34,387 bases of DNA, from positions 1 to 34,387 of the forward strand of contig JAIXTS010000310.1 in assembly GCA_027483805.1 (NCBI GenBank). Direction: 5' to 3'. The stretch is from Azospirillum sp. (GTDB lineage: Bacteria; Pseudomonadota; Alphaproteobacteria; Azospirillales; Azospirillaceae). Positions 4,809 to 30,959 of this stretch are shown here, piece after piece. Below the pieces are notes generated by a model, which made no database searches, was not told the origin of the DNA, and saw only the letters and a program-made list of their open reading frames with translations. Position 1 is the stretch's first letter, and each line of letters begins with the position of its first letter. The position numbers were made by a program, and so were the translations under genes.

Positions 4809-6422
4809 ATGGGTCAGCCTGCGAAAGAAGCCGCAGCAACTTCCTTCTGGGACGGTGTGGCGCAGATGGCACTGGCCGCCGGCCTGCTGTTCGTGGCCTT
4901 CACCTTCAAGAATTACGGCATCACCTGGGACGAACCGCTGCATCTGGAGAATGGATGGCGGGCCTTGGACTGGTATCTCTCGCTGGGCGAGGACCAGCGG
5001 GTGCTGGGGTTCCAGAACCTTTACCTCTATGGGGCGCTTTACGACACGCTGACGGCGGCGGCAGGGGCAATGCTGCCGTTCGACGCCTACGAAACCCGGC
5101 GCCTGATTGGCGGGCTGGTCGGTGTCGCGGGGTTGGCCGCCGTGCGGGCACAGGCACGCCTGCTGGCCGGGCCGCGGGCGGGTGCGCTGGCGGTGATCCT
5201 GCTGCTGCTGACGCCGGAATGGATGGGGCAGGCCTTCGCCAATCCCAAGGATGTGCCCTTTGCCACCGCCGCCGCCTGGATGGGGCTGCTGCAGATCCGC
5301 CTGATCCGGGACCTGCCCCGCCAGAAATGGACCAGTCTGGCGGGGTTCGGGCTGGCCTTCGGGGCGGCGCTGGGCATCCGGGTCGGTGGCGTGGTGCTGA
5401 TCGGCCCGCTGGGTATCGGCTGCCTGTACTGGCTGGGCCTGCATCTGCGCCGAACCCCTGTTGCACCGGCGCTGTTTGATGGTTTTGTGGCGGCGGCGCG
5501 GCTGGTCCCGGCCTTTATCCTGGCCTGGCTGATCATGCTGGCCTGCTGGCCCTGGGCACAGTTGGACCCGATTGCCCGCCCGCTGGAGGCCTTGGCCGGT
5601 TTCTCGCATTTCCCGCTCTCCTTCAGCTTCCCGTTCGCCGGACAGACCCTGGTCACCACCGACCTGCCCTGGTGGTATGTGCCGGTGGCCCTGGGTGTGA
5701 AACTGCCAGAGGTAACGCTGCTGGGTCTGGCGATCGTAACGGTCCTGGCCATCCGCGCCGTGATGCGGGCGCCGCTGTCACTGCTGCCGGAACGGGTCGC
5801 ACTGGCCGCCGCCATCTTGCTGCCCCCCCTGATCGTGATTGTCACAGGTGCGGTTCTTTATGACGGTATCCGCCATCTGCTGTTCCTGCTGCCGCCGCTG
5901 ACGGTGGCCGCCGGCATCGGGCTGGACCGGCTGGCAACCTGGATGGACGGGCGGGCGGTGCGGGACCGGCTGCCGCAGGCGACAGGGCTGGCTGCCGCGC
6001 TGCTGTGCCTGTGGGCCGGCTGGCAGGTGCTGACGATGGCCCGCCTGCACCCCTATGAGGCCATCTGGTACAATGCCCTGGCCGGCGGTGTGCGTGGAGC
6101 CGAGGGACGGTTCGAACTGGATTACTGGGGCAGCCCCCTGTCGGAAGCGGCCGACATGCTGCGCAACCGCATCGTGGCGCAGGAGGGCGGCAGCGCCATC
6201 GCCCGGCCCTACCGCGTGCGCATCTGCGGACCGCATGACAGCGCCCTGCATTTCCTGCCCCCGACATGGAAAGCGCCGGCGGACGGCCAGGGCGAGGCCG
6301 ATTTCTACATCGCCTTCACGCGCAGCAGTTGCGGCCCCGCCCCCGCTGGCCGGGAGATCGTCAGGGTCGAACGGATGGGTGTGACCTTGGCCTATGCGCT
6401 GGACCTGCGCGGCACGGATTGA
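4809..6422 (+). CDS. Multi-pass GT-C glycosyltransferase (PMT/ArnT-like)
   Basis: A 537-residue polytopic protein with about ten hydrophobic segments between residues 18 and 415 and a soluble C-terminal domain. After the first membrane helix comes ITWDEPLHLENG, whose Asp41-Glu42 pair matches the catalytic acidic DE/DD motif in the first outer loop of GT-C enzymes that use polyprenyl-phosphate sugars. A second conserved-looking loop, AFANPKDVPFA, follows the fourth helix. Such enzymes transfer the sugar to lipid A, O-antigen or protein in the periplasm. It is translated directly after the GtrB-like gene (8-nt gap, no strong ribosome site, so probably coupled). A GtrA-type flippase, common in such trios, is absent. 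The acceptor is unknown. Confidence 0.8.
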   Translation: MGQPAKEAAATSFWDGVAQMALAAGLLFVAFTFKNYGITWDEPLHLENGWRALDWYLSLGEDQRVLGFQNLYLYGALYDTLTAAAGAMLPFDAYETRRLIGGLVGVAGLAAVRAQARLLAGPRAGALAVILLLLTPEWMGQAFANPKDVPFATAAAWMGLLQIRLIRDLPRQKWTSLAGFGLAFGAALGIRVGGVVLIGPLGIGCLYWLGLHLRRTPVAPALFDGFVAAARLVPAFILAWLIMLACWPWAQLDPIARPLEALAGFSHFPLSFSFPFAGQTLVTTDLPWWYVPVALGVKLPEVTLLGLAIVTVLAIRAVMRAPLSLLPERVALAAAILLPPLIVIVTGAVLYDGIRHLLFLLPPLTVAAGIGLDRLATWMDGRAVRDRLPQATGLAAALLCLWAGWQVLTMARLHPYEAIWYNALAGGVRGAEGRFELDYWGSPLSEAADMLRNRIVAQEGGSAIARPYRVRICGPHDSALHFLPPTWKAPADGQGEADFYIAFTRSSCGPAPAGREIVRVERMGVTLAYALDLRGTD

Positions 6423-6424
6423 TA

Positions 6425-6460
6425 CCAAGCCGCCTCCAGGTTGACTTTTGGGCGGCTTGG
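6425..6460 (+). terminator. Hairpin after glycosyltransferase operon
   Basis: CCAAGCCGCC and GGCGGCTTGG form perfect 10-bp arms around a 16-nt loop, 2 nt after the stop codon of the GT-C gene. No T-run follows. Confidence 0.55.
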
Positions 6461-6461
6461 A

Positions 6462-6519
6462 GGCCGGGGACTGCCGGCCCGCGCCCCGTGGCGCGCAAGA
6501 CAAGGGTGCGGATGCGCCT
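6462..6519 (-). repeat. Structured intergenic repeat, copy 1
   Basis: Read on the minus strand this begins GGCGCATCCGCACCCTTG and ends with a hairpin whose loop holds CAGTC. It aligns with copies at 9264, 12237 and 14971. The central stem is CGCGCC/GGCGCG (6480-6485 with 6490-6495). The last stem is GGCCGG/CCGGCC (6462-6467 with 6474-6479). Confidence 0.6.
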
Positions 6520-6536
6520 GCCCCGCGCTTGACGGA

Positions 6537-6571
6537 CGCCTTCAGACTGACCATCGGTCAGTGTGAAGGCG
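6537..6571. terminator. Long triloop hairpin between convergent genes
   Basis: Sixteen-base arms with a single mismatch enclose the triloop ATC; the inner part reads ACTGACC-ATC-GGTCAGT. It lies between the 3' ends of the GT-C gene and the ATP12 gene, 87 nt from the latter. It has no T-run on either strand. The near-perfect symmetry suits a bidirectional terminator or a REP-like element. A TetR-type operator is a less likely alternative, since no gene starts here. Confidence 0.55.
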
Positions 6572-6657
6572 GATGGGTATTGTGCGGGTTTGTAGTGCGA
6601 TCGGTCCAGCCATGCCACAATACAGCCCGACCCGCGCCCGGCAGGGCAATTGCTGCG

Positions 6658-7353
6658 TCAGCGCAGCAAATCCAGGAACCAGACGGTGTGGGCCAGATCA
6701 GCACGCTGGATGGCGCGGCGGTCGGCCGCTTCCCAGTCCTCGCCCCATTTCTCGATCTGGAAAGTCTCGTCCAACTGCGCCAGATCGAAGGCCTGCTCCG
6801 CCGTAAGGTGGCGGTCGACCAGCGCCAGGGACACCAGCAGCGAGCCTGTGATGCCGATGGTATTCTGCAGCGCCGTCAGGTGCCATTCATCCAACTGGTC
6901 CACCGCCGCGCGCAGGGCCTTCAGGGCGCCCGCCGGCTGCGGCTTATGGAGGATGCCGCTGGTGACCAGCAGATGCGCGTCATGGCGACGCGCCGCCCAG
7001 TCCAGCAGCGGATTCCACAAGGTCGCCTGACGCTGCACCAACTCATCGGGCTCGTCTGCCCGATAGCAGACCAGTTCGCTTTCACCATACACGGCGGATG
7101 CCTCGGCTACCGCGTCCAGGCGGCCGCGGACACCGTCGATGCTGGTGCTGGCCAGCTGGGTCAGCGGCATTGTGGCGGGCTTAACCTCTTCCCCTTGCGC
7201 GGCCCATTCGGCGGCCATGGCCTCGGCCAGCGCACGGGTGGGCACGACAAGCGGCAGTTTGGCCGGGGTGCGCACCGGTTTGCCGTCCAGCGTCAGGGTG
7301 AAGCCCCCGTCGGCCGCCACCGTTTCAACCTGCTTGTAAAAACGCTTCATCAT
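6658..7353 (-). CDS. ATP12-family F1-ATPase assembly chaperone
   Basis: A 231-residue homologue of the mitochondrial and alphaproteobacterial ATP12 chaperone, which in mitochondria helps assemble the alpha subunit into the F1 sector of ATP synthase. The N-terminus FYKQVE...LDGKPVRTPAKLPLVVPT and the segment ELVCYRADEPDELVQRQ...WNPLLDWA are typical of the family, as is the C-terminal TAEQAFDLAQLDETFQIEKWG. The gene starts 1 nt after the stop of the HAD phosphatase gene (two tandem ATGs at 7353 and 7350), so the two are co-transcribed and probably translationally coupled. ATP12 is largely restricted to alphaproteobacteria and eukaryotes, which supports the taxonomic placement. Confidence 0.92.
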   Translation of the reverse strand: MMKRFYKQVETVAADGGFTLTLDGKPVRTPAKLPLVVPTRALAEAMAAEWAAQGEEVKPATMPLTQLASTSIDGVRGRLDAVAEASAVYGESELVCYRADEPDELVQRQATLWNPLLDWAARRHDAHLLVTSGILHKPQPAGALKALRAAVDQLDEWHLTALQNTIGITGSLLVSLALVDRHLTAEQAFDLAQLDETFQIEKWGEDWEAADRRAIQRADLAHTVWFLDLLR

Positions 7354-7354
7354 C

Positions 7355-8026
7355 TTATTCCCTGACCAACAGGCCCGTCACGGCATCCGGGAGAGCCGCA
7401 TATTCATGCACCAGCAGGTCGGCACCGGCCGCCAGAAGTTCACCCCCATCATGATAGCCCCAGGCGACACCGATGGAGCGAACGCGCGCATTGCGGGCCA
7501 TCAGAATATCGAAACTGGTATCACCGATCACCACGGTGCCGGCGGCATCCGCGCCGCTTTCGGCCAGGGCCGCAAACACCATATCGGGGTTGGGCTTGCC
7601 GGCGACCCGGTCGCTGGTCTGCAACGTTATGAAACGGTGGGCAAGGCCATGATGCGCCAGGGTGGCATCCAGGCCGCGCCGGCTTTTCCCCGTGGCAATG
7701 CCCAGCAGGAACCCCGCCGCTTCCAGCGCATCCAGCGCTGCTACAGCCCCGTCGAACAGCGGCTCCGGATGGGTGCCCGCCAGACGGTTGCGGTAGAAGG
7801 CGGCCTTGTAGGCCTCCGAAATCGCCTCATGCCGATCGGCTGTCAGGGCGGGGGCCAGGCGCGCCACGGCGTCGACCAGCGGCAGCCCTACCACGCGCCG
7901 GACATCGCGGGCCGGCGGCGGCACCAGCCCCTGGGCCAGGAACCCCGCCTCCATGGCGGCTACGATCGCATGCTGGCTGTCCACCAGCGTGCCGTCGCAA
8001 TCAAAGAGAGCAAGCTTCAACGACAT
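7355..8026 (-). CDS. HAD-superfamily hydrolase (phosphoglycolate phosphatase-like)
   Basis: A 223-residue HAD subfamily IA phosphatase. Motif I is LFDCDGTLVDS with the nucleophile Asp9 and Asp11. A helical cap follows (about residues 18-85). Motif II is IATGKS (about 115), motif III the conserved Lys in RVAGKPNPDM, and motif IV is VIGDTSFDILMARNA, giving Mg2+ ligands. The substrate is probably a small phosphorylated metabolite such as 2-phosphoglycolate, but the family is promiscuous. It precedes ATP12 by 1 nt. In many alphaproteobacteria rluC lies directly upstream; here a plus-strand BMP gene intervenes. Confidence 0.9.
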   Translation of the reverse strand: MSLKLALFDCDGTLVDSQHAIVAAMEAGFLAQGLVPPPARDVRRVVGLPLVDAVARLAPALTADRHEAISEAYKAAFYRNRLAGTHPEPLFDGAVAALDALEAAGFLLGIATGKSRRGLDATLAHHGLAHRFITLQTSDRVAGKPNPDMVFAALAESGADAAGTVVIGDTSFDILMARNARVRSIGVAWGYHDGGELLAAGADLLVHEYAALPDAVTGLLVRE

Positions 8027-8217
8027 CTATCCGTATGCACCCGCCGATTTCATCCTGCCTGTGCTACTCCGTGACGACGCAGGTGTCGATAGACAGCAGG
8101 GCATGCGGCTCATGCCGGCCGGTCGCGGGGTGCGGAAGGCGCCCGACGCTGCTAACGAACAATCAACGGTTTATGTTTAGCTTTCGGCCAGAATGTCTCC
8201 AGGATACATACGTTAGA

Positions 8218-9225
8218 ATGCGTTTTGTACGGTTCATCATTTTGTTGGCTTGCTGTTTTCTGGCCTCGCCCGCCCGGGCTGGCGCCGATTACGGGGTCAT
8301 TTACAGCGGGCAGAAGGATGACCGGGTGTTCAATTCGATGGTGGTGGCCGCCATCGCCCGGTTCGAAACAGAGAACCAGGTCAATTTTCGCCATCGGGTC
8401 ATCGTGACCCAGCAGGACAGCGCCGACGCCATTCGCGCCTTTGTCGAACGAGGCATCACCACGCTGGTCCTGGTCGGTTTTATCCATGAAAAGGCGGTAC
8501 GGGATCTGGCCCCCCTTTATCCGCATGCCCGCTTCACCCTTATCGACGGCAATGTGACGGGGCCTAATGTGCGGGCCATTCGTTTCCGGGAGCAGGAGGC
8601 CGGGTTCCTCGCGGGCATGGCAGCCGCGTTTGCCAGTCGCAGCGGACGGGTGGCCTTTATCGGGGCTGTTGCCACGCCACCGGTACAGCGCTTCGGCTGC
8701 GGCTTTGTGCAGGGCGTAAACCAAGCACGACCGATATCAGTGATCACCCGATACATGACCAATGACATGGACGGGTTCCGCGACCGGCGTCTGGCCCGGA
8801 CCGTGGCGGCGGACATGCTGGCCCAGGGCGCGGATGTGCTGTTTCCCGCCGCCGGTCTGGCCAGCCGTGATGCCCTTCTGGCGGCGGCCCAGGCCGGAAA
8901 GCTGGGCATCGGGGTTGACAGCGATCAGGAGGATGTGGCCCCCGGCCATATCGTTACCACCGCCGTCAAGCGTATCGATGTGGCCGTCACCACCGCCGTG
9001 CGCGATCTGATCGATGGCACCTGGACGGCCGGCAATGCCGAGATGGGCATTGCCGAAGGCGGGGTCGATTGGGTCCGCACCGGCGCCGACCGTTTTCTCA
9101 CCACCCAACAGATCGCCACGATCGAGAGCACAAAGGCCAGGATCACCGCCGGCCGTCTGAAGGTGGTCGCACACGATCCTGTGTGCGACCGGCCGGAGGT
9201 CAAACCCTATGCCAGTCTCCCGTGA
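8218..9225 (+). CDS. BMP/PnrA-family periplasmic binding protein
   Basis: A 335-residue protein with an N-terminal signal (MRFVRFIILLACCFLASPARA, cleavage expected after ARA) followed by a basic-membrane-protein (Med/PnrA-like) fold: YGVIYSGQKDDRVFNSM at the start of lobe 1, then EQEAGFLAGMAAAFASRSGRVAFIGA and GIGVDSDQED. The family binds nucleosides for ABC importers; here no ATPase or permease gene is adjacent. The first Cys (residue 12) follows LLA and could be a lipobox, but that signal would be very short. I chose the ATG at 8218 because the signal peptide begins there; a longer frame from 8035 would bury it. The ribosome site is weak (AGGA, 13 nt away). The gene splits the usual rluC-HAD-ATP12 neighbourhood. 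Confidence 0.82.
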   Translation: MRFVRFIILLACCFLASPARAGADYGVIYSGQKDDRVFNSMVVAAIARFETENQVNFRHRVIVTQQDSADAIRAFVERGITTLVLVGFIHEKAVRDLAPLYPHARFTLIDGNVTGPNVRAIRFREQEAGFLAGMAAAFASRSGRVAFIGAVATPPVQRFGCGFVQGVNQARPISVITRYMTNDMDGFRDRRLARTVAADMLAQGADVLFPAAGLASRDALLAAAQAGKLGIGVDSDQEDVAPGHIVTTAVKRIDVAVTTAVRDLIDGTWTAGNAEMGIAEGGVDWVRTGADRFLTTQQIATIESTKARITAGRLKVVAHDPVCDRPEVKPYASLP

Positions 9226-9263
9226 TCCGGACCGATCAAGCGGTCAGATCGCTCGGCGAAGGA

Positions 9264-9320
9264 GGGGCGCATCCACGCCCTTGGCTACGCGGCACGTACC
9301 GCGCGGCGGCAGTCGGCGCC
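9264..9320 (+). repeat. Structured intergenic repeat, copy 2
   Basis: Begins GGGGCGCATCCACGCCC and ends GGCAGTCGGCGCC. Three successive hairpins can form: GGGCG/CGCCC (9265-9269 with 9276-9280), CGCGG/CCGCG (9288-9292 with 9299-9303), and GGCGGC/GGCGCC (9305-9310 with 9315-9320, one mismatch) with loop AGTC. The 31-nt palindrome follows immediately. Confidence 0.6.
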
Positions 9321-9351
9321 GTACCATCAGTCAAAAATCTTGGCCGATGGT
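9321..9351 (-). repeat. 31-nt palindromic element, copy A (3' of rluC)
   Basis: On the minus strand it starts 1 nt after the rluC stop and reads TACCATCGGCCAAG...CTGATGGTA, an imperfect stem-loop with a 3-nt loop. It matches the plus strand of the element at 30929-30959 at 28 of 31 positions. It is probably a terminator-like hairpin that is also a dispersed repeat. Confidence 0.65.
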
Positions 9352-9352
9352 A

Positions 9353-10384
9353 TCAGTCCAGAGCGGCGAACGGGTCTTCCTTCAGATTGGCGCTAAACCC
9401 GAAATAGTCCCAGGCTGACCGCATATGATCGGGCAGCGGGGCCGTCACATCGATGGAGCCGCCGCGCGGATGCGGGATGATGATGCGGCGTGCATGCAGA
9501 TGCAGCTGCCGCTTCATATCGGCCCCGTCGATGAAGGCCGCCTGCCCGGCATATTTGCCATCCCCCAGGATCGGCGTGCCGATGGCATCCATATGGACGC
9601 GCAATTGATGGGTGCGGCCCGTGCGCGGCCACAGGGCCACAAAGGCCGCCTTGCGGTGGGCATGTTCCAGAACAGTGTAATAGGATTGCGCGCGCTGGCC
9701 GTTGCGCTCATCGACCATCATGCGCTCACCGCCGGCCGCCATCTCCTTGCCGATCGACAGATCGATGCGGCCCTGATGCGGTTCCGGCACGCCCACCGTG
9801 ATCGCCCAATAGATCTTGCGGGCGTCCCGACCCCGGAAACTCTCCGCCAGACGCGTGGCGGCAAAGGCGTTGCGGGCCAGGACCAGACAGCCGCTGGTAT
9901 CTTTGTCCAGACGGTGGACCAGCTTGGGCCGGCCGGCCGCGTCGAATTTCAGCAGGTCCAGCATGGCGTCCAGATGCTTGGCCTGACCGGTACCGCCCTG
10001 GACGGCCATGCCCGCCGGCTTGTCCAGCACGATGACATCGGCGTCGCGATACAGCACACAGGCGCGCAGCGCCGCCACTTCCTTGTCGCTGAACAGCGGC
10101 TTGGCAGCCTTTACGGCCCCCTGCCCTTCCGCCGGCGCCGGGGCCGCGTCGGGAAGCGGCGGGATGCGGACCGACTGGCCGGCCATCAGACGGGTATTGG
10201 CGTCAGCGCGCTTGCCATCCACCCGCACCTGGCCGGTGCGCAGCAGCTTTTGCAGCACGCCATGGCCCACCTGCGGGTAATGCCGCTTGAACCAGCGGTC
10301 CAGGCGCACATCCCCCTCATCCTCGGCCACCAGTTTTGTCTCTACGATCTTTGCGGGACCGCGCGCTTCACCGGCATCGCTCAT
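9353..10384 (-). CDS. rluC: RluC/RluD-family 23S rRNA pseudouridine synthase
   Basis: A 343-residue two-domain enzyme that isomerises uridines in large-subunit rRNA. An S4 RNA-binding domain (about residues 20-75, VRLDRWFKRHYPQVGHGVLQ) precedes the catalytic domain, whose HRLDKDTSG motif contains the essential Asp; GRTHQLRVHM and ILGDGKYAG are further family blocks. I chose the ATG at 10384, which overlaps the crcB stop as ATGA, instead of the much longer upstream frame, because the upstream part is only the shadow of crcB. It is the last gene of a three-gene coupled operon and is followed at once by the 31-nt palindrome. RluC versus RluD specificity is not certain. Confidence 0.92.
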   Translation of the reverse strand: MSDAGEARGPAKIVETKLVAEDEGDVRLDRWFKRHYPQVGHGVLQKLLRTGQVRVDGKRADANTRLMAGQSVRIPPLPDAAPAPAEGQGAVKAAKPLFSDKEVAALRACVLYRDADVIVLDKPAGMAVQGGTGQAKHLDAMLDLLKFDAAGRPKLVHRLDKDTSGCLVLARNAFAATRLAESFRGRDARKIYWAITVGVPEPHQGRIDLSIGKEMAAGGERMMVDERNGQRAQSYYTVLEHAHRKAAFVALWPRTGRTHQLRVHMDAIGTPILGDGKYAGQAAFIDGADMKRQLHLHARRIIIPHPRGGSIDVTAPLPDHMRSAWDYFGFSANLKEDPFAALD

Positions 10385-10761
10385 GCCGTCACCATCCGTA
10401 CCAGATAAAGCCCGGCGAACAATCCGCCGATGCCGATAACCAAGGACGACAGCACATAGGCCGCCGCCAGACCCAGATCCCCCCGTTCCAGCATGGACAC
10501 CACATCCAGGGAAAAGCTGGAAAAGGTCGTGAACCCGCCCAGGATGCCCACCGTCAGAAAGGCGCGAACCTCCGCCGATGGCGACCAGGCCTGGGCCATC
10601 AGCCCGACCAGCACTCCCATGACGAAGGAACCGACGATATTCACCGTCAGCGTCGCCCAGGGAAAGCCCGCGCCGAACAGCCGACCGAACCACAGACCTG
10701 TCAGATACCGCGCCACGGAGCCGAACGCACCACCGATTGCGACATAGAACACCATCTTCAT
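10381..10761 (-). CDS. crcB: Fluoride channel CrcB/Fluc
   Basis: A 126-residue four-helix membrane protein that exports fluoride as a dual-topology dimer. Family marks are GGAFGSVARY (residues 10-19), the central Asn in TVNIVGSFVMG, and GILGGFTTFSSFS, which carries the Phe-box and the central Na+-binding region. It overlaps the upstream hypothetical gene and the downstream rluC by ATGA at both ends, so all three are translationally coupled. No fluoride riboswitch is evident, and as an internal gene it has no leader of its own. Confidence 0.95.
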   Translation of the reverse strand: MKMVFYVAIGGAFGSVARYLTGLWFGRLFGAGFPWATLTVNIVGSFVMGVLVGLMAQAWSPSAEVRAFLTVGILGGFTTFSSFSLDVVSMLERGDLGLAAAYVLSSLVIGIGGLFAGLYLVRMVTA

Positions 10762-11636
10762 GCGCCGACCCCGAATATCCAGCCCTCCCGCCGGGCAATG
10801 TCGGGCCTCAACCCGGCCGGATTCCAGGCCGATGGCTTGCCCGCCAGCCGCGACAGCCCGGCCGCCGTGATGATGGCATCCCCGATGTGATCGTCAAACT
10901 GTTCCGGCAGTGCCGGCGACAGGGTACAGTCGAAATGCGCCACCGCCACCTCCATGACCGACCGCCCGGTGATCTTGGCGACACCGCCCAGCGCCTGTTT
11001 GCGAAACAGGGTCGGGTAGATTTCCATCACCACGCTTTGCCCCGGCCCTGGCTGTTCGGCGGGCCATACCGCCAGCTTCTCGCCCGCCATGGCGCGCAGG
11101 CGTTTCAAGGTGCGCATGCCGGCAAGCGATGCCTTGCCCACCTGCTTGGCCGCCGCCGCCAGCTTGAACAGCGATACCGGCGTACCGGCTCCCGTCTCTG
11201 CCGCTACCAGTTCCACCCGCCGCCGCTTGGTGGATCCATCGCCCCAATGGGCCGGTGTGGGACCGTTGATCCAGAAACTGGGGAACAGGCGCGGGTCCTG
11301 CACGGCGGCACCAGCAAAATCATCCTCCCCGCCGGCGCTGGCCTGATCGATCAGGTCCCAAAGGGCGAACATGTCGGTGACATCCGGGACCCGCCCATCC
11401 AGATAGCCCACACCGTCGACCCAGGGCATGGCGAATCCGAAATCGAACCCCGCCAGGATGCGGCGGCCCGACGCGATCTCGGCGGCGATCCAGTCCGCCA
11501 CCGCCTGCCGGCGCCAATAGCGATCAGGTGGCCAGATCGGGCTGACATGGCCATCCTGGTCACAGGCGGCCACGGCCACGGCGCGGGCCGGCTGCGCCCC
11601 GGTCCAGTCGATGCCCACGAAAAGATCGAATTCCAT
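10758..11636 (-). CDS. Conserved hypothetical protein, DUF429-like RNase H fold
   Basis: A 292-residue protein beginning MEFDLFVGIDWTGA. The pattern of a hydrophobic strand ending in GIDW and then, after about 45 residues, ILAGFDFGFAMPW is what the RNase H-like/actin-like DUF429 proteins show; the Asp residues could bind a metal. The C-terminal part ends DHIGDAIITAAGLSRLA...EGWIFGV, also typical of DUF429 (an acidic residue in a final helix). The biochemical role is unknown. The start at 11636 follows a GGGGCGGGG tract; longer starts at 11669 or 11684 are possible. The 3' end overlaps crcB by ATGA. Confidence 0.65.
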   Translation of the reverse strand: MEFDLFVGIDWTGAQPARAVAVAACDQDGHVSPIWPPDRYWRRQAVADWIAAEIASGRRILAGFDFGFAMPWVDGVGYLDGRVPDVTDMFALWDLIDQASAGGEDDFAGAAVQDPRLFPSFWINGPTPAHWGDGSTKRRRVELVAAETGAGTPVSLFKLAAAAKQVGKASLAGMRTLKRLRAMAGEKLAVWPAEQPGPGQSVVMEIYPTLFRKQALGGVAKITGRSVMEVAVAHFDCTLSPALPEQFDDHIGDAIITAAGLSRLAGKPSAWNPAGLRPDIARREGWIFGVGA

Positions 11637-11704
11637 CCCCGCCCCGCATTGCCAACCATCCCGCCGCATCGCATCATCGCGCACGGATCAACAGGAGAGT
11701 ATCC

Positions 11705-12181
11705 ATGACCAGCATCTATGACTTCCGCGCCAAGACACTGGACGGCAAGGATGTGTCACTGGGCGACTGGCGCGGCAAGGTCATGCTGATCGTCAACACC
11801 GCCTCGAAATGCGGCTTCACCTATCAATACCAGGGGCTGGAGGCGCTGCACCGCGATTATGCGGCGCGCGGGCTTGTGGTCCTGGGCTTCCCCTGCAACC
11901 AGTTCGGCCATCAGGAACCGGGCGACGCGGCGGAAATCGCCAATTTCTGCTCACTCACCTATGACGTCACCTTCCCGATGTTCGCCAAGATCGACGTGAA
12001 TGGGGACAATGCCCATCCGCTCTATACATGGCTGAAGACACAGAAGCGCGGGATCCTGATCAGCCGCATCAAATGGAACTTCACCAAGTTCCTGGTGGAT
12101 CGGTCCGGCAAGGTGGTCGCCCGCTTCGGCCCGACCACAAAGCCCGATGCGCTGCGGGCTGCGATTGAGGGATTGCTTTAA
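11705..12181 (+). CDS. Glutathione peroxidase-family (thioredoxin-dependent type) peroxidase
   Basis: A 158-residue thiol peroxidase that reduces hydrogen and lipid peroxides in the cytoplasm. The active-site block NTASKCGFTYQYQGLE contains the peroxidatic Cys36; GFPCNQFGHQEPG holds the conserved Gln of the catalytic tetrad and WNFTKFLVD the Trp and Asn. An additional Cys82 in EIANFCSLTYDVTFP sits where thioredoxin-dependent members carry the resolving Cys, so thioredoxin is the more likely reductant. AGGAG lies just before the ATG. It is divergent from the DUF429-like operon and ends 8 nt before a perfect 16-bp hairpin. Confidence 0.93.
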   Translation: MTSIYDFRAKTLDGKDVSLGDWRGKVMLIVNTASKCGFTYQYQGLEALHRDYAARGLVVLGFPCNQFGHQEPGDAAEIANFCSLTYDVTFPMFAKIDVNGDNAHPLYTWLKTQKRGILISRIKWNFTKFLVDRSGKVVARFGPTTKPDALRAAIEGLL

Positions 12182-12189
12182 CACCAGCA

Positions 12190-12224
12190 GCACGAAATCC
12201 TGAGCGATGCTCAGGATTTCGTGC
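12190..12224 (+). terminator. Perfect 16-bp triloop hairpin after the peroxidase gene
   Basis: GCACGAAATCCTGAGC and its exact complement enclose the triloop GAT, 8 nt after the stop. No T-run follows. It belongs to the same long-stem, 3-nt-loop class as 6537-6571 and sits next to structured repeat copy 3. Confidence 0.7.
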
Positions 12225-12236
12225 CCTTCAGTCGCC

Positions 12237-12300
12237 GGGCGGCCGCATCTGCGCCCTTTGGGCTGTTCGCACCCCTTGGCGGGGGCAGGCAGTCGGCGGT
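12237..12300 (+). repeat. Structured intergenic repeat, copy 3
   Basis: Contains GGCCGCATCTGCGCCCTT and ends GGCAGTCGGCGG. Stems: GGGCG/CGCCC (12237-12241 with 12252-12256) and CCCC/GGGG (12272-12275 with 12281-12284). The final stem around CAGTC is weakened compared with the other copies. It lies between the peroxidase hairpin and the 3' end of the convergent exported-protein gene. Confidence 0.55.
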
Positions 12301-12302
12301 GT

Positions 12303-13070
12303 TCAATTCGGAACGGCCATCCGCCTGGTCAACGCCGCCGCCACGTCATCCCAGCCCTGGTGGATCGCCGACACGTGAAGAAAGGGACCAATCAGGCCAT
12401 AGTTAACCAACGGATCCGTATGGAATAGCGGAGCGCCCGCATTGACCAGGGCAAGGATCATTTCCCGTTGGCCCCGGGCGTCAGCAAGCAGCAATCTTGC
12501 AGCGCCATCATCATTATTCATGGGCCCGTTGCGGCGAACATGATCGGCGACCATGCCGGGATTCCCATGGGTCCAGCGGTGGGTAGAGGCCGCCTGATCA
12601 ATCATTCTCATCAGGTCTCTGACCGCGGGCGGCATGCCATGGCGCTCACCATCATCATCCAGGACACTCTTGTACCGGAGCCCAACCCGGATCGTCAGGC
12701 GATTGATATCCTGATCGGTGACCATGCCGGGCGGCGGGCGCTGATAGACGTCCCCAAGTTCGAAAAAATTCACCCGGTCAAACGCGGCCAGGAGCTGAAC
12801 CACATTTACCTGTGGGATACGACTTTCATGGCGACCCGGGAACATGACCGCAAACATCAGAACGTCAGAACCCAACAGGGCCTTATCGCCGCCGTGCGCC
12901 GTGCCGGTATCAAACACGACGCGGCCATCACCATGGATTGTAATGGTGTAGCGCGGCCCGCCCCAGCCTTGATGCATACGCTGCAGCTTTATCTCAATAT
13001 CATCGGACGTGGCCGCGCCGGCGGGCGTGATCCAGAAGAGCAGCAGCAGGAACAGTATCACCTTCTGCAA
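12303..13070 (-). CDS. Exported protein with DUF6438-like domain
   Basis: A 255-residue protein with a clear Sec signal (MQKVILFLLLLFWITPAGA, cleavage near residue 19). Residues 25-115 look like DUF6438: IEIKLQRMHQGWGGPRYTIT, a short GDGRVVF strand, then LLAAFDRVNFFELGDVY. The remainder (about 150-255) contains LLLADARGQREMILALVNAG...VSAIHQGWDDVAAAL, helical pairs resembling degenerate ankyrin repeats, a pairing I recall for this domain. Probably periplasmic; function unknown. It lies just downstream of the dGTPase gene on the same strand, but the 75-nt gap holds a hairpin that may separate their transcription. Confidence 0.7.
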   Translation of the reverse strand: MQKVILFLLLLFWITPAGAATSDDIEIKLQRMHQGWGGPRYTITIHGDGRVVFDTGTAHGGDKALLGSDVLMFAVMFPGRHESRIPQVNVVQLLAAFDRVNFFELGDVYQRPPPGMVTDQDINRLTIRVGLRYKSVLDDDGERHGMPPAVRDLMRMIDQAASTHRWTHGNPGMVADHVRRNGPMNNDDGAARLLLADARGQREMILALVNAGAPLFHTDPLVNYGLIGPFLHVSAIHQGWDDVAAALTRRMAVPN

Positions 13071-13117
13071 GACCGCCTCCCCCCATCCGACCCAACAGCT
13101 GTCTGGATAGCGGGGAA

Positions 13118-13149
13118 GTGAGGCAAAATCAGGACAAGCGGTGCCTCAC
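13118..13149 (-). terminator. Hairpin at the 3' end of the dGTPase gene
   Basis: On the minus strand GTGAGGCA and TGCCTCAC pair with 8-bp arms across a 16-nt loop; the 5' arm overlaps the stop codon of the dGTPase gene. The stem can extend through flanking GGGG/CCCC with an internal bulge. Confidence 0.4.
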
Positions 13150-14468
13150 CCCGCGATCAACTGCGCCTGCCTTATCGCAAATCGGTCGGTCATGCCGGCG
13201 ACATAGTCCATCAGGGCCCGCGTCCAGCCGGCCCGGTCATAGGGGACCTGCCGAATACCCGGCACGGTTTCCAGCAGCGAGGCGAATCGGCGGGACAGAT
13301 CAGCCCCCGGCCCCGCCTTTTCCCGTGCCAGCAGCGCCTCGCCATAGGCGTCCAGCAGGGTGGTCACGGTGCGGGCGGCGATGATGTCGGTCTCGCAGCG
13401 CTGCTGCCCGCGATAGATCTGGGTATAGGAGATGTCGGAAATATCCTTCAGCGCGTCCGTCCGCTCGATCATCTTCAGCAGCGGCCCCACCGGCTTGCCC
13501 TCCATGATGTCGGGCAGCTTGTCCAGGAAGGCCGCCGCCGCGTCGGTGACCAGCCGGTCGATGGCGCGGGCACGCAGATAGATCAGGCGGCGATCCTCAT
13601 CCTCGATTCCTTCATATTCCGCCCGATCCCAGTCGATCAGCGGTTCCAGCAGTTCCTCTGCCTCCACAAAGGACAGCATGCGCATCTTCACCGCATCCTC
13701 GATATCGACGACGGAGTAACAGGCATCATCCGCCGCCTCCACCAGATAGGCCAGCGGATGCCGGCACCAGGCGTCGCGGCCCGTGGGCACCAGACCCAGT
13801 TCGCCCGCCACCTCGGCCATCAGTTCCGTCTCGCTGCCCAGGAAGCCGTATTTGCGCTTATGCGGCCGTTCCTCCCCTGCGAAGGCGGGGGCCGACCAGG
13901 GATACTTGCCATAGGTGCCCAGCGTGGCCGCCGTCAGTTGCAGTCCGCCCTGCGCGCGCCAGCCCTGAAGGCGGGTCAGCACGCGGAAGCCCTGGGCATT
14001 GCCCTCAAAATTCGACAGTTCGGCCGCCTGCTGCCCATCCACGCCGGACAGGATGTCGCGGCCCAGCGCCGTACCAGCGAACCAGTCGGAAATCACATCC
14101 TCGCCCGTATGGGCAAAGCAGGGCGTGCCCAGATCATGGGCCAGGGCGCCGGCCGCCACCACATCGCCGATATCGGCGGCACTGGCCGGCACGGCATCCT
14201 GTCCGTAGCGCCGGATGATCTCCGCCCCCGCCCAGCTGCCCAGCGACCGGCCGACGCGGGCCGCCTCCATCGAATGGGTCAGGCGGGATCGCACATAATC
14301 CGAACCGCCGATGCCATGCACCTGCTGCTTGTCCGACAGGCGCCGGAAGCTGGTGGAAAAGGTGATCCGGTCGATATCGATCTCATAGGCACTGCGATAA
14401 GGCAGTTCCGGGGCCAATCCGTCCTTCGCCAGACGCTTGCGGGACAAGAGGGACTGCCAACGCATCAT
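13146..14468 (-). CDS. dgt: Deoxyguanosinetriphosphate triphosphohydrolase (dGTPase-like HD protein)
   Basis: A 440-residue HD-domain phosphohydrolase that splits dNTPs (dGTP in the type enzyme) into nucleoside and tripolyphosphate. Metal-binding residues are visible: His65 in RSRLTHSMEAARVGRS, the HD pair His111-Asp112 in GALAHDLGTPCFAHTGE, and a downstream Asp in YLVEAADDACYSVVDIEDA. N-terminal RSAYEIDIDRITFSTSFRRLSDKQQV is family-typical. The ATG at 14468 is preferred to the upstream start at 14492 because GGAG lies 8 nt before it. It is divergent from erpA. Substrate preference among dNTPs cannot be told. Confidence 0.93.
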   Translation of the reverse strand: MMRWQSLLSRKRLAKDGLAPELPYRSAYEIDIDRITFSTSFRRLSDKQQVHGIGGSDYVRSRLTHSMEAARVGRSLGSWAGAEIIRRYGQDAVPASAADIGDVVAAGALAHDLGTPCFAHTGEDVISDWFAGTALGRDILSGVDGQQAAELSNFEGNAQGFRVLTRLQGWRAQGGLQLTAATLGTYGKYPWSAPAFAGEERPHKRKYGFLGSETELMAEVAGELGLVPTGRDAWCRHPLAYLVEAADDACYSVVDIEDAVKMRMLSFVEAEELLEPLIDWDRAEYEGIEDEDRRLIYLRARAIDRLVTDAAAAFLDKLPDIMEGKPVGPLLKMIERTDALKDISDISYTQIYRGQQRCETDIIAARTVTTLLDAYGEALLAREKAGPGADLSRRFASLLETVPGIRQVPYDRAGWTRALMDYVAGMTDRFAIRQAQLIAG

Positions 14469-14500
14469 CGCGGTATCTCCAGCGCATGCCATGCCCGCCT

Positions 14501-14529
14501 TTGACGGACACGCCTTCGCCGCTTACATA
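14501..14529 (+). promoter_or_regulatory. Sigma-70-like promoter for erpA
   Basis: TTGACG (14501-14506), a 17-nt spacer, then TACATA (14524-14529), placed 45 nt before the erpA ATG. The -35 is a near-consensus match and the -10 is fair. Confidence 0.55.
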
Positions 14530-14540
14530 GGGTGTAAGCG
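14520..14540. promoter_or_regulatory. Inverted repeat overlapping the erpA -10
   Basis: CGCTTACA and TGTAAGCG are exact complements separated by TAGGG. The left arm contains the proposed -10, so a dimeric repressor bound here would block erpA transcription and might also affect the divergent dGTPase gene. The regulator is unknown. Confidence 0.55.
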
Positions 14541-14573
14541 TTTGTCCAGTCGTTAGCAGACAGGAAGCAATCA

Positions 14574-14954
14574 ATGACCATCACATCGGCCCATACAGGC
14601 GACACCGCCACCCCGCCGCCCGCAGCCAGGGCCATGACCCTGTCCGACAGTGCCGCCCGCCGCATCGCGAAGCTGGCGGCCCTTGAAGGCAATCCCGACC
14701 AGATGTTGCGCCTGACGGTGTCGGGTGGCGGCTGCTCCGGCTTTCAGTACGGGTTCTCCTTCGACACGGTCACCAATGACGATGATCATGTCTTCGCCAA
14801 GGATACGGCGAAGCTGGTCGTGGACGATGTCTCCCTCGACCTGCTGGCAGGCGCCGAGCTGGATTTCGCGGAAGACCTGATGGGCAGCTATTTCAAGGTC
14901 GTTAACCCCAATGCCGCCTCCTCCTGCGGCTGCGGTACGTCGTTTTCGGTTTAG
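14574..14954 (+). CDS. erpA: A-type iron-sulfur cluster insertion protein ErpA
   Basis: A 126-residue A-type carrier that delivers Fe-S clusters to apo-proteins. The three ligand cysteines are Cys54 in SGGGCSGFQYGF and Cys118/Cys120 in SSCGCGTSF, in the family's CXnCXC arrangement. The first 20 residues are poorly conserved and the recognisable domain begins MTLSDSAARRI, so a start at residue 21 is conceivable; the ATG at 14574 is kept because AGGAAG lies 6 nt upstream. No isc/suf genes are adjacent; erpA beside dgt and xth is a common alphaproteobacterial arrangement. An inverted repeat overlaps its -10. Confidence 0.94.
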   Translation: MTITSAHTGDTATPPPAARAMTLSDSAARRIAKLAALEGNPDQMLRLTVSGGGCSGFQYGFSFDTVTNDDDHVFAKDTAKLVVDDVSLDLLAGAELDFAEDLMGSYFKVVNPNAASSCGCGTSFSV

Positions 14955-14970
14955 TCCCCCAGGCGCCGGG

Positions 14971-15028
14971 CGCCGCCATCCGGCGGCTTGGCTCACGCCG
15001 CATGTGCGGCGGGCCGCCAGTCGGCGGC
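14971..15028 (+). repeat. Structured intergenic repeat, copy 4
   Basis: The best-formed copy, with three perfect hairpins in a row: GCCGCC/GGCGGC with loop ATCC (14972-14977, 14982-14987), CGCCGC/GCGGCG with loop ATGT (14996-15001, 15006-15011), and GCCGCC/GGCGGC with loop AGTC (15013-15018, 15023-15028). It lies between erpA and xthA. Confidence 0.65.
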
Positions 15029-15032
15029 ATTC

Positions 15033-30685: not shown

Positions 30686-30928
30686 GGGCACATGCTCCTC
30701 CCAGGCCACACGCCCAAGGGACGGCAGCCGGATAGCCCGCCAGTGGCGACGGGTCGTTATCGTGGATTGGTGGGGAGGCGCCCGCCGTCGCGGACCTCCA
30801 TGCCAACAACCATAAGCCGACCAAACAAATCACCAAAGCCGTTTATACCGATACAAAGCATCGGCGCGGGCGATACATCAGAGCTGGTTACGGTTGACCG
30901 GAAAAAGCTCCGAGGGCGACTGTTGCCG
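30686..30928. promoter_or_regulatory. Promoter region of the aromatic operon
   Basis: About 240 bp upstream of the monooxygenase. On the minus strand TTGGTG and TATGGT with a 16-nt spacer (near 30805-30835) could be a promoter. Upstream of it, CCGAT (30848-30852) and ATCGG (30860-30864) form an inverted pair 7 nt apart, a plausible activator site for a LysR protein. Nothing coding is seen. Confidence 0.35.
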
Positions 30929-30959
30929 TACCATCGGCCAAAATTTTTGGCTGGTGGTA
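30929..30959 (-). repeat. 31-nt palindromic element, copy B (3' of the fumarylacetoacetase-family gene)
   Basis: Plus strand TACCATCGGCCAAAA...GGCTGGTGGTA. The arms pair over 14 bp with two G-T wobbles and a 3-nt loop, 6 nt after the stop of the minus-strand hydrolase gene. It matches copy A (minus strand of 9321-9351) at 28 of 31 positions. A central A/T run gives a short U-tract inside the stem rather than after it. Confidence 0.7.

Follow-up and report, generated by a model that had tools for sequence, protein, structure and literature searches.

We examined a 34,387-nucleotide stretch of Azospirillum sp. DNA (GenBank assembly GCA_027483805.1, contig JAIXTS010000310.1, positions 1 to 34,387 of the forward strand; hereafter the window), in which a preliminary description had reported four diverged intergenic repeats of about 60 bp, with self-complementary stems that differ in sequence from copy to copy. 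These repeats turn out to be copies of a short element without genes, approximately 145-170 bp in length and larger than these ~60-bp cores. Because the element has inverted ends, target duplications and an empty site, we consider it, with a probability of about 0.82, to be a non-autonomous transposable element built of five hairpins, that is, a miniature inverted-repeat transposable element (MITE). The figure of about 60 bp holds for the core and not for the full unit, which in copy 1 of the window is 157 bp long.

Ends, target duplications and anatomy of the element

Among 227 copies from the genus with enough flanking sequence, both candidate ends were found in 32. The ends are inverted (TACC...GGTA), with 5 to 12 of 12 bases in agreement across these 32 copies. 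Fifteen of them were flanked by an exact 3-bp identity, a duplication of the form TNA, against 3.45 expected from shuffled flanks; flank matches of 1, 2 or 4 bp stayed at or below the shuffled expectation. The duplication-flanked units agreed in 6 to 13 of 14 end bases and were mostly 144-172 bp long, with five shorter ones (99-125 bp) also listed. Outside the genus, an exact 3-bp duplication was present in eight of nine two-ended copies (three from one genome); these loci had been found with the core model or the core pattern, and ends and duplications played no part in finding them. An empty site was also observed: a 158-bp element in genome G005 has TTA on both sides, and the sequence is uninterrupted in G004 and G010, with one adjacent base differing.

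The core has the consensus CCCTCA-NN-CGCCGGGCG, followed by hairpin H1 (loop ATCC), CTTGGCT, H2 and H3 (loop AGTC or GGTC). In intact copies it is preceded by hairpin A and followed by hairpin B, within the TACC...GGTA ends, which makes five hairpins in total. Between hairpin A and the leader, TTTT was found in 27 of 146 copies, against 15.5 in shuffles. When G000, the window's own genome (5.19 Mb in 543 contigs), was searched with a covariance model made from the four window copies, 146 of the best 150 candidates matched at E ≤ 0.01, the window four included, a count to be read as a lower bound (at least 146). A plain DNA search of G000 with copy 2 gave 43 matches. The preliminary description would have been abandoned had there been no more copies or no covariation; what we found were many copies in the genome and strong covariation. 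At two loci of one genome (L173 and L206 in G249), the H3 loop is longer by roughly 17 bases (by eye), with H1, H2 and both ends kept.

All four copies were found in the window at the positions first reported. The features are as follows.

6423-6579, minus strand: copy 1, complete element with TACC...GGTA ends (157 bp)
6461-6524, minus strand: core of copy 1 with hairpins H1, H2 and H3 (model match)
6425-6460, minus strand: hairpin B of copy 1 (3' end of the element)
6538-6570, minus strand: hairpin A of copy 1 (5' end of the element)
9260-9352, plus strand: copy 2 (core 9260-9322, hairpin B 9322-9352)
12182-12302, plus strand: copy 3 (hairpin A 12189-12224, core 12236-12302)
14955-15030, plus strand: copy 4, CCCTCA-like leader and core, without hairpin A
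30915-30959 (approximate), plus strand: fifth, truncated copy, an H3 remnant and hairpin B ending in GGTA, then TGA (by eye)

The total is therefore not four, given the fifth copy, which is also why segment 9318-9353 forms a direct/inverted repeat pair with the region around 30915. The stems quoted for the four copies (CGCGCC/GGCGCG, CGCGG/CCGCG, CCCC/GGGG and CGCCGC/GCGGCG) are correct. The loop AGTC, noted earlier in the last hairpin of copies 1, 2 and 4, is there and occurs in copy 3 too, though the last stem is poor in that copy. Copies 1 to 3 each have an element end exactly at a stop codon. At one end, copy 1 directly adjoins the TGA stop codon (6420-6422) with which a gene ends at 6422; the two flanks of the copy form no exact duplication. 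The right end of copy 2, GGTA, lies directly on the stop codon (9353-9355) of a minus-strand gene, and its left end is not recognisable. Read by eye, the left end of copy 3 is CACC (TACC with one change), right behind the TAA stop at 12179-12181; the right end is not recognisable. One or both recognisable ends are missing in copies 2 to 4. Copy 4 sits between an Fe-S biosynthesis gene and an exo/endonuclease gene.

The corresponding loci of the other genomes of the genus vary in content. At the copy 4 locus, inspected by eye, G004 and G005 share this copy, the one in G006 is degraded and the one in G003 has the opposite orientation; none was seen in G001, G002, G007, G008, G009 and G010 (six of ten congeners). 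The copy 2 locus is a 24-bp gap in G004, G005 and G010 and a 106-bp gap without the core in G008. In G006, the gene found upstream of copy 1 is followed by a different copy, which is in reverse orientation. For copy 3, again by eye, G004 and G005 have a 211-bp gap with no core seen, and the neighbouring gene is another one in G006, G008 and G010. Close tandem copies, ~55-115 bp apart, occur elsewhere (G186:C34:278566/278653; G326:C5:26506/26621/26735; G191:C35:281884/281974/282028) and hint that copies were amplified locally or that one site was used repeatedly.

Placement relative to genes

The preliminary description had placed all four window copies in gene 3' regions, and both the open reading frames (ORFs) and the gene calls agree with this. 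With gene context taken from our own ORF scorer, 149 copies of G000 were distributed over 56 convergent gaps, 65 co-directional gaps (24 sense, 41 antisense) and 7 divergent gaps, the remainder being at the edges of the examined stretches (19) or overlapping a gene call (2). The background gaps of at least 60 bp, in stretches chosen around copies, were 55 convergent, 115 co-directional and 37 divergent. Counted against ORFs of at least 100 codons, 13 of 48 right ends in G000 fell at offset 0 from a stop codon, against 12 over 80 other offsets, and 6 of 56 left ends did so, against 28 over 80 other offsets; no other single offset held more than 2. With gene calls, the counts were 12 of 48 right ends and 5 of 58 left ends. 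In the other genomes of the genus, 3 of 14 right ends and 1 of 10 left ends were at a stop (a small set and a weak signal); outside the genus the signal was also weak, with 2 of 12 right ends and 2 of 13 left ends, the last being no higher than another single offset.

The frequent use of stop codons would follow from the TNA target together with the loss of insertions inside genes. TAA and TGA, and TTA and TCA on the other strand, are TNA sites, and an insertion at a stop codon would be harmless because the duplication rebuilds the stop. Insertions within genes would be purged, so that copies would gather at gene 3' ends, and the 3'-end location thereby gets a simple reason. No special targeting of stop codons is needed: among 30 right-ended G000 copies with TNA between two genes, 11 were at a stop, and even use of TNA sites in the emptied gap predicts 10.5.

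Paired stems and their exchange between copies

The paired changes in the stems, already noticed in the four window copies, were confirmed on a larger scale. The set of 232 copies on which some of the tests rest holds 151 from G000 and, for the other genomes, the retrieved copies only. Unguided alignment and folding of 141 of the 149 cores (MAFFT and RNAalifold) yielded no more than H1 and a piece of H2, which we put down to gap placement; because of this poor recovery, pairs were counted on another alignment, A3, and checked by swapping arms. A3 has 110 distinct rows and was fitted to the model, hence leans towards structure. In it, 96.8% of the cells were paired, and 358 cells had changed on both sides, against 125.9 in shuffles (none of 500 as high) and at most 50 with slid partners; one-sided wobble changes were found in 14 cells only. 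The arm-swap test used fixed positions, without a fitted alignment, in 155 distinct cores of 63 or 64 bases among the 232 copies. Arms of the same copy paired perfectly in 105 (H1), 120 (H2) and 99 (H3) of the 155 cores; with arms exchanged between copies, the means were 19.6, 32.1 and 32.1.

The earlier proposal that such changes point to selection on structure stands as far as paired change exceeds the shuffled expectation. Part of this change, however, consists of whole stems exchanged between copies and not of point-by-point compensation. Between genomes, 27 copy pairs match in both flanks, several of them at the same locus, and stems were compared in 22 of these. G004_L315 and G010_L301 share a locus and have different H1 stems. 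The copy at 524 of L326 has different H2 stems in G005 and G004, with its H1 and H3 loops changed as well. In G010_L286 and G004_L312 both H1 and H2 differ; as the neighbouring sequence differs too, re-insertion is possible in this case. Single paired changes at orthologous loci were seen in H3 at the copy 4 locus, between L280 and C75 and between L292 and C253, and some pairs carry single-arm breaks. The types of H1 and H2 stems are linked (mutual information of 0.59, against 0.16 shuffled) and their combinations are mosaic, with 23 of 168 four-combination squares complete. We take these patterns to reflect recombination between copies, added to the diversity of their founders.

The paired changes could also be purely mechanical, without any selection for structure: one arm would serve as template for the other (quasi-palindrome correction), or copies would convert one another. 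Whole stems that differ at orthologous loci with matching flanks, the mosaic H1-H2 combinations and the lack of a wobble preference are what such processes would leave. Still, the frame of loops and linkers is fixed while the stems drift, in other families too, and mismatches stay uncorrected in many copies. A mechanical origin may account for how the stems change, not for the keeping of the frame, and as a full explanation we think it unlikely.

The kinds of mismatch bear on whether a transcript is selected. In helices with at most two mismatches (155 distinct cores), we counted 27 G.U, 43 A.C and 57 other mismatches; in A3 there were 25 G.U and 32 A.C. With no preference for G.U, the decay of perfect founders fits and selection on a transcript does not. 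The preliminary description had named an RNA element among its candidates. An RNA structure conserved at the 3' ends of mRNAs, whose folded form would be selected for a role in stability, termination or protein binding, would agree with the strong covariation, the 3'-end location, the TTTT excess between hairpin A and the leader and the few point-compensated pairs at orthologous loci. Besides the lack of a G.U preference on the element strand, it has against it that copies are found in both orientations, that they are present or absent at the same locus and that known RNA families were not recognised: Rfam gave no match at gathering score in the window, and in eight loci the best hit was a microRNA family (E of 0.026, 29.1 bits against a gathering score of 72). 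A known RNA family was therefore rejected, and an RNA element of any kind appears quite improbable. Strong covariation among repeat copies is not by itself proof of a functional RNA. In G000, two weak biases point in the same direction, antisense over sense copies (41 against 24) and A.C over G.U mismatches (43 against 27). An A.C excess is a G.U excess on the other strand, and together with the antisense bias it would fit a weak RNA role of the complementary strand.

Mobilisation, relation to known repeats and distribution

For the MITE, we propose that a DDE-type transposase supplied in trans would cut at the TACC ends and insert the element into TNA. The inner hairpins would be selected as folded DNA, or as short-lived RNA, during mobilisation and not at the resident sites. 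Founders would have perfect stems, residents would decay without favouring G.U, and recombination would reshuffle stems among copies. More tentatively, a transposase or an accessory protein might read the inner hairpins, with their fixed loops and linkers, as folded single-stranded DNA, the stems being exchanged as modules, in combination with ends of the double-strand type (terminal inverted repeats and TNA duplication); we hold this possible but doubtful. Finding a partner enzyme would answer whether folded DNA inside the unit can be a requirement for a DDE-type element.

Several points weigh against the element being a MITE of this kind. The end finders demand TACC and GGTA, so independent evidence comes from the duplication and the empty site and not from the end motifs; the left-end finder favoured TACC behind TNA, with no match of the flanks demanded. 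An exact target duplication is absent in 17 of the 32 two-ended copies, some ends having probably been assigned to a neighbouring hairpin. Both ends were found in only 20 of the 151 G000 copies; the others would in many cases be truncated or decayed, or else the core is able to spread by itself as well. The single point pairs at orthologous loci could also reflect local selection on structure. No autonomous partner transposase was found either. Of 13 carriers searched, only 6 had IS5-type transposases (PF13340), and TACC ends were seen at none of the 15 PF13340 loci examined; this partner was rejected on both counts. In stretches chosen around copies, a search for units no longer than 3 kb whose TNA flanks were equal gave none above 357 bp with at least 8 of 14 end bases matching. 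Short target duplications of 2-3 bp, of T-A or TNA type, are made by the IS427 and IS1031 groups of the IS5 family and by PIF/Harbinger elements, whose ends are not known to match TACC. The present element resembles these in its TNA-type duplications, and the PF13340 members seen here lack TACC ends.

The preliminary description had also considered a mobile hairpin of the repetitive extragenic palindrome (REP) type. Mobility and resemblance to REPs are borne out, but inverted ends and target duplications are those of a MITE. The RAYT domain Y1_Tnp (PF01797) was missing in 23 of 32 carriers tested (drawn from 42 known carriers), which rules out RAYT as a general helper; it was present in 9 (1 of 11 in the genus), and none was found in G000. 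Inverted ends and TNA duplications, both observed here, would not be expected from movement by RAYT. Although high copy number, extragenic location, palindromes and closeness to gene 3' ends recall REPs moved as single-stranded hairpins by a RAYT (TnpA-REP, HuH), the unit, mostly of 144-172 bp with five hairpins, stands against a single palindrome of 20-40 bp in the REPs described in the available part of PMC3733652, and such an origin is very improbable.

In the portions of the literature available to us, bacterial MITEs such as Correia/NEMIS, ERIC and RUP are non-coding and shorter than 200 bp, with terminal inverted repeats, target duplication, many copies and stable folds (PMC2229807, PMC10969869). 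The element shares all of these features and encodes no protein. As far as those accounts describe the known MITEs, it differs in its TNA duplication with TACC ends and in three inner hairpins whose loops are fixed and whose stems can be exchanged. It also forms five separate hairpins where most others form a stem-loop by end-to-end pairing, and is GC-rich where MITEs are typically AT-rich (PMC2229807, PMC10969869). Compared with Correia/NEMIS, ERIC and RUP as outlined there, it occurs in many alphaproteobacterial families and has no known partner transposase. The five-hairpin build, the class-wide frame and the exchangeable stems are the unusual part of this MITE, which offers a testable case of structure conserved over sequence in a DNA parasite, with a natural empty site.

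Three groups of repeats from Alphaproteobacteria come close in other ways, judged from the parts of their descriptions at hand. CIR repeats of Caulobacter, Brucella and other Alphaproteobacteria are likewise intergenic, measure about 110 bp and have independent arms joined by a linker and TA at the ends, with a GANTC site at a loop (PMC2229807). Here GANTC occurs anywhere in only 26 of 232 genus copies, and outside the genus in 19 of 42, against 212 of 745 control windows. GANTC does not define the element, and in this feature it departs from CIR as described, though the two may have a common origin. In several out-of-genus copies the loop of hairpin B reads GAGTC, a GANTC site. CGTC-tagged REPs are also palindromic, mainly alphaproteobacterial, variable in stems and loops and with no dedicated transposase known; they are described as single stems of 8-9 bp with unpaired CGTC (also TGTC or CCTC) and a CCA-like tail, mostly in head-to-head dimers (PMC3733652), unlike a five-hairpin unit of 145-170 bp with terminal inverted repeats and target duplication, though a sub-part may be shared. 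Br-REP1 of Bradyrhizobium has three palindromes in 3' untranslated regions of an alphaproteobacterial host, as here, with about 200 sites for the central one (PMC5082802). Its consensus, CCGGAATCTCGAGATTCCGG, is a different sequence, and the available portion of the Br-REP1 account reports no ends, target duplication or empty sites (PMC5082802). A full-text literature search found no publication on the present element, though papers beyond the searched library could still describe it.

The distribution of the element across Alphaproteobacteria is patchy. A first model (R1, E ≤ 0.001) had matches in 16 of 40 genomes, these being the window's own and its relatives, including all 11 of the genus. 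A second (R2, E ≤ 1e-4), with the best 18 candidates per genome scored, found it in at least 18 of 289 genomes of the class. The pattern CCTCANNCGCCGGGCGN{10,18}TTGGCT, which itself partly fixes the linker, occurred in 30 of 385 class genomes and 24 of 276 genera, at up to 135 places per genome, and its reversed control gave 0. Loops and linkers are fixed while stems drift in other families as well. Outside the genus, six stretches with the element came from Neoroseomonas, Roseomonas, Phaeospirillum, Porphyrobacter, Sphingomonadales assemblies and one uncultured alphaproteobacterium. By eye, no such element was seen in Sinorhizobium (L366).

A search of phage records gave no match. Plasmid records gave few, among them two plasmids of Niveispirillum cyanobacteriorum TH16 that carry the repeat. 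A plasmid copy in Azospirillum ramasamyi has TGA on both sides and a 3' end that reads GATA (by eye). Also by eye, a Methylobacterium bullatum plasmid (L367, NZ_LR743510.1; match at 2501-2559) carries an unrelated inner part between identical TACC ends, flanked by a TGA duplication. Such shared ends around a different core suggest that the ends may define a wider group of MITEs.

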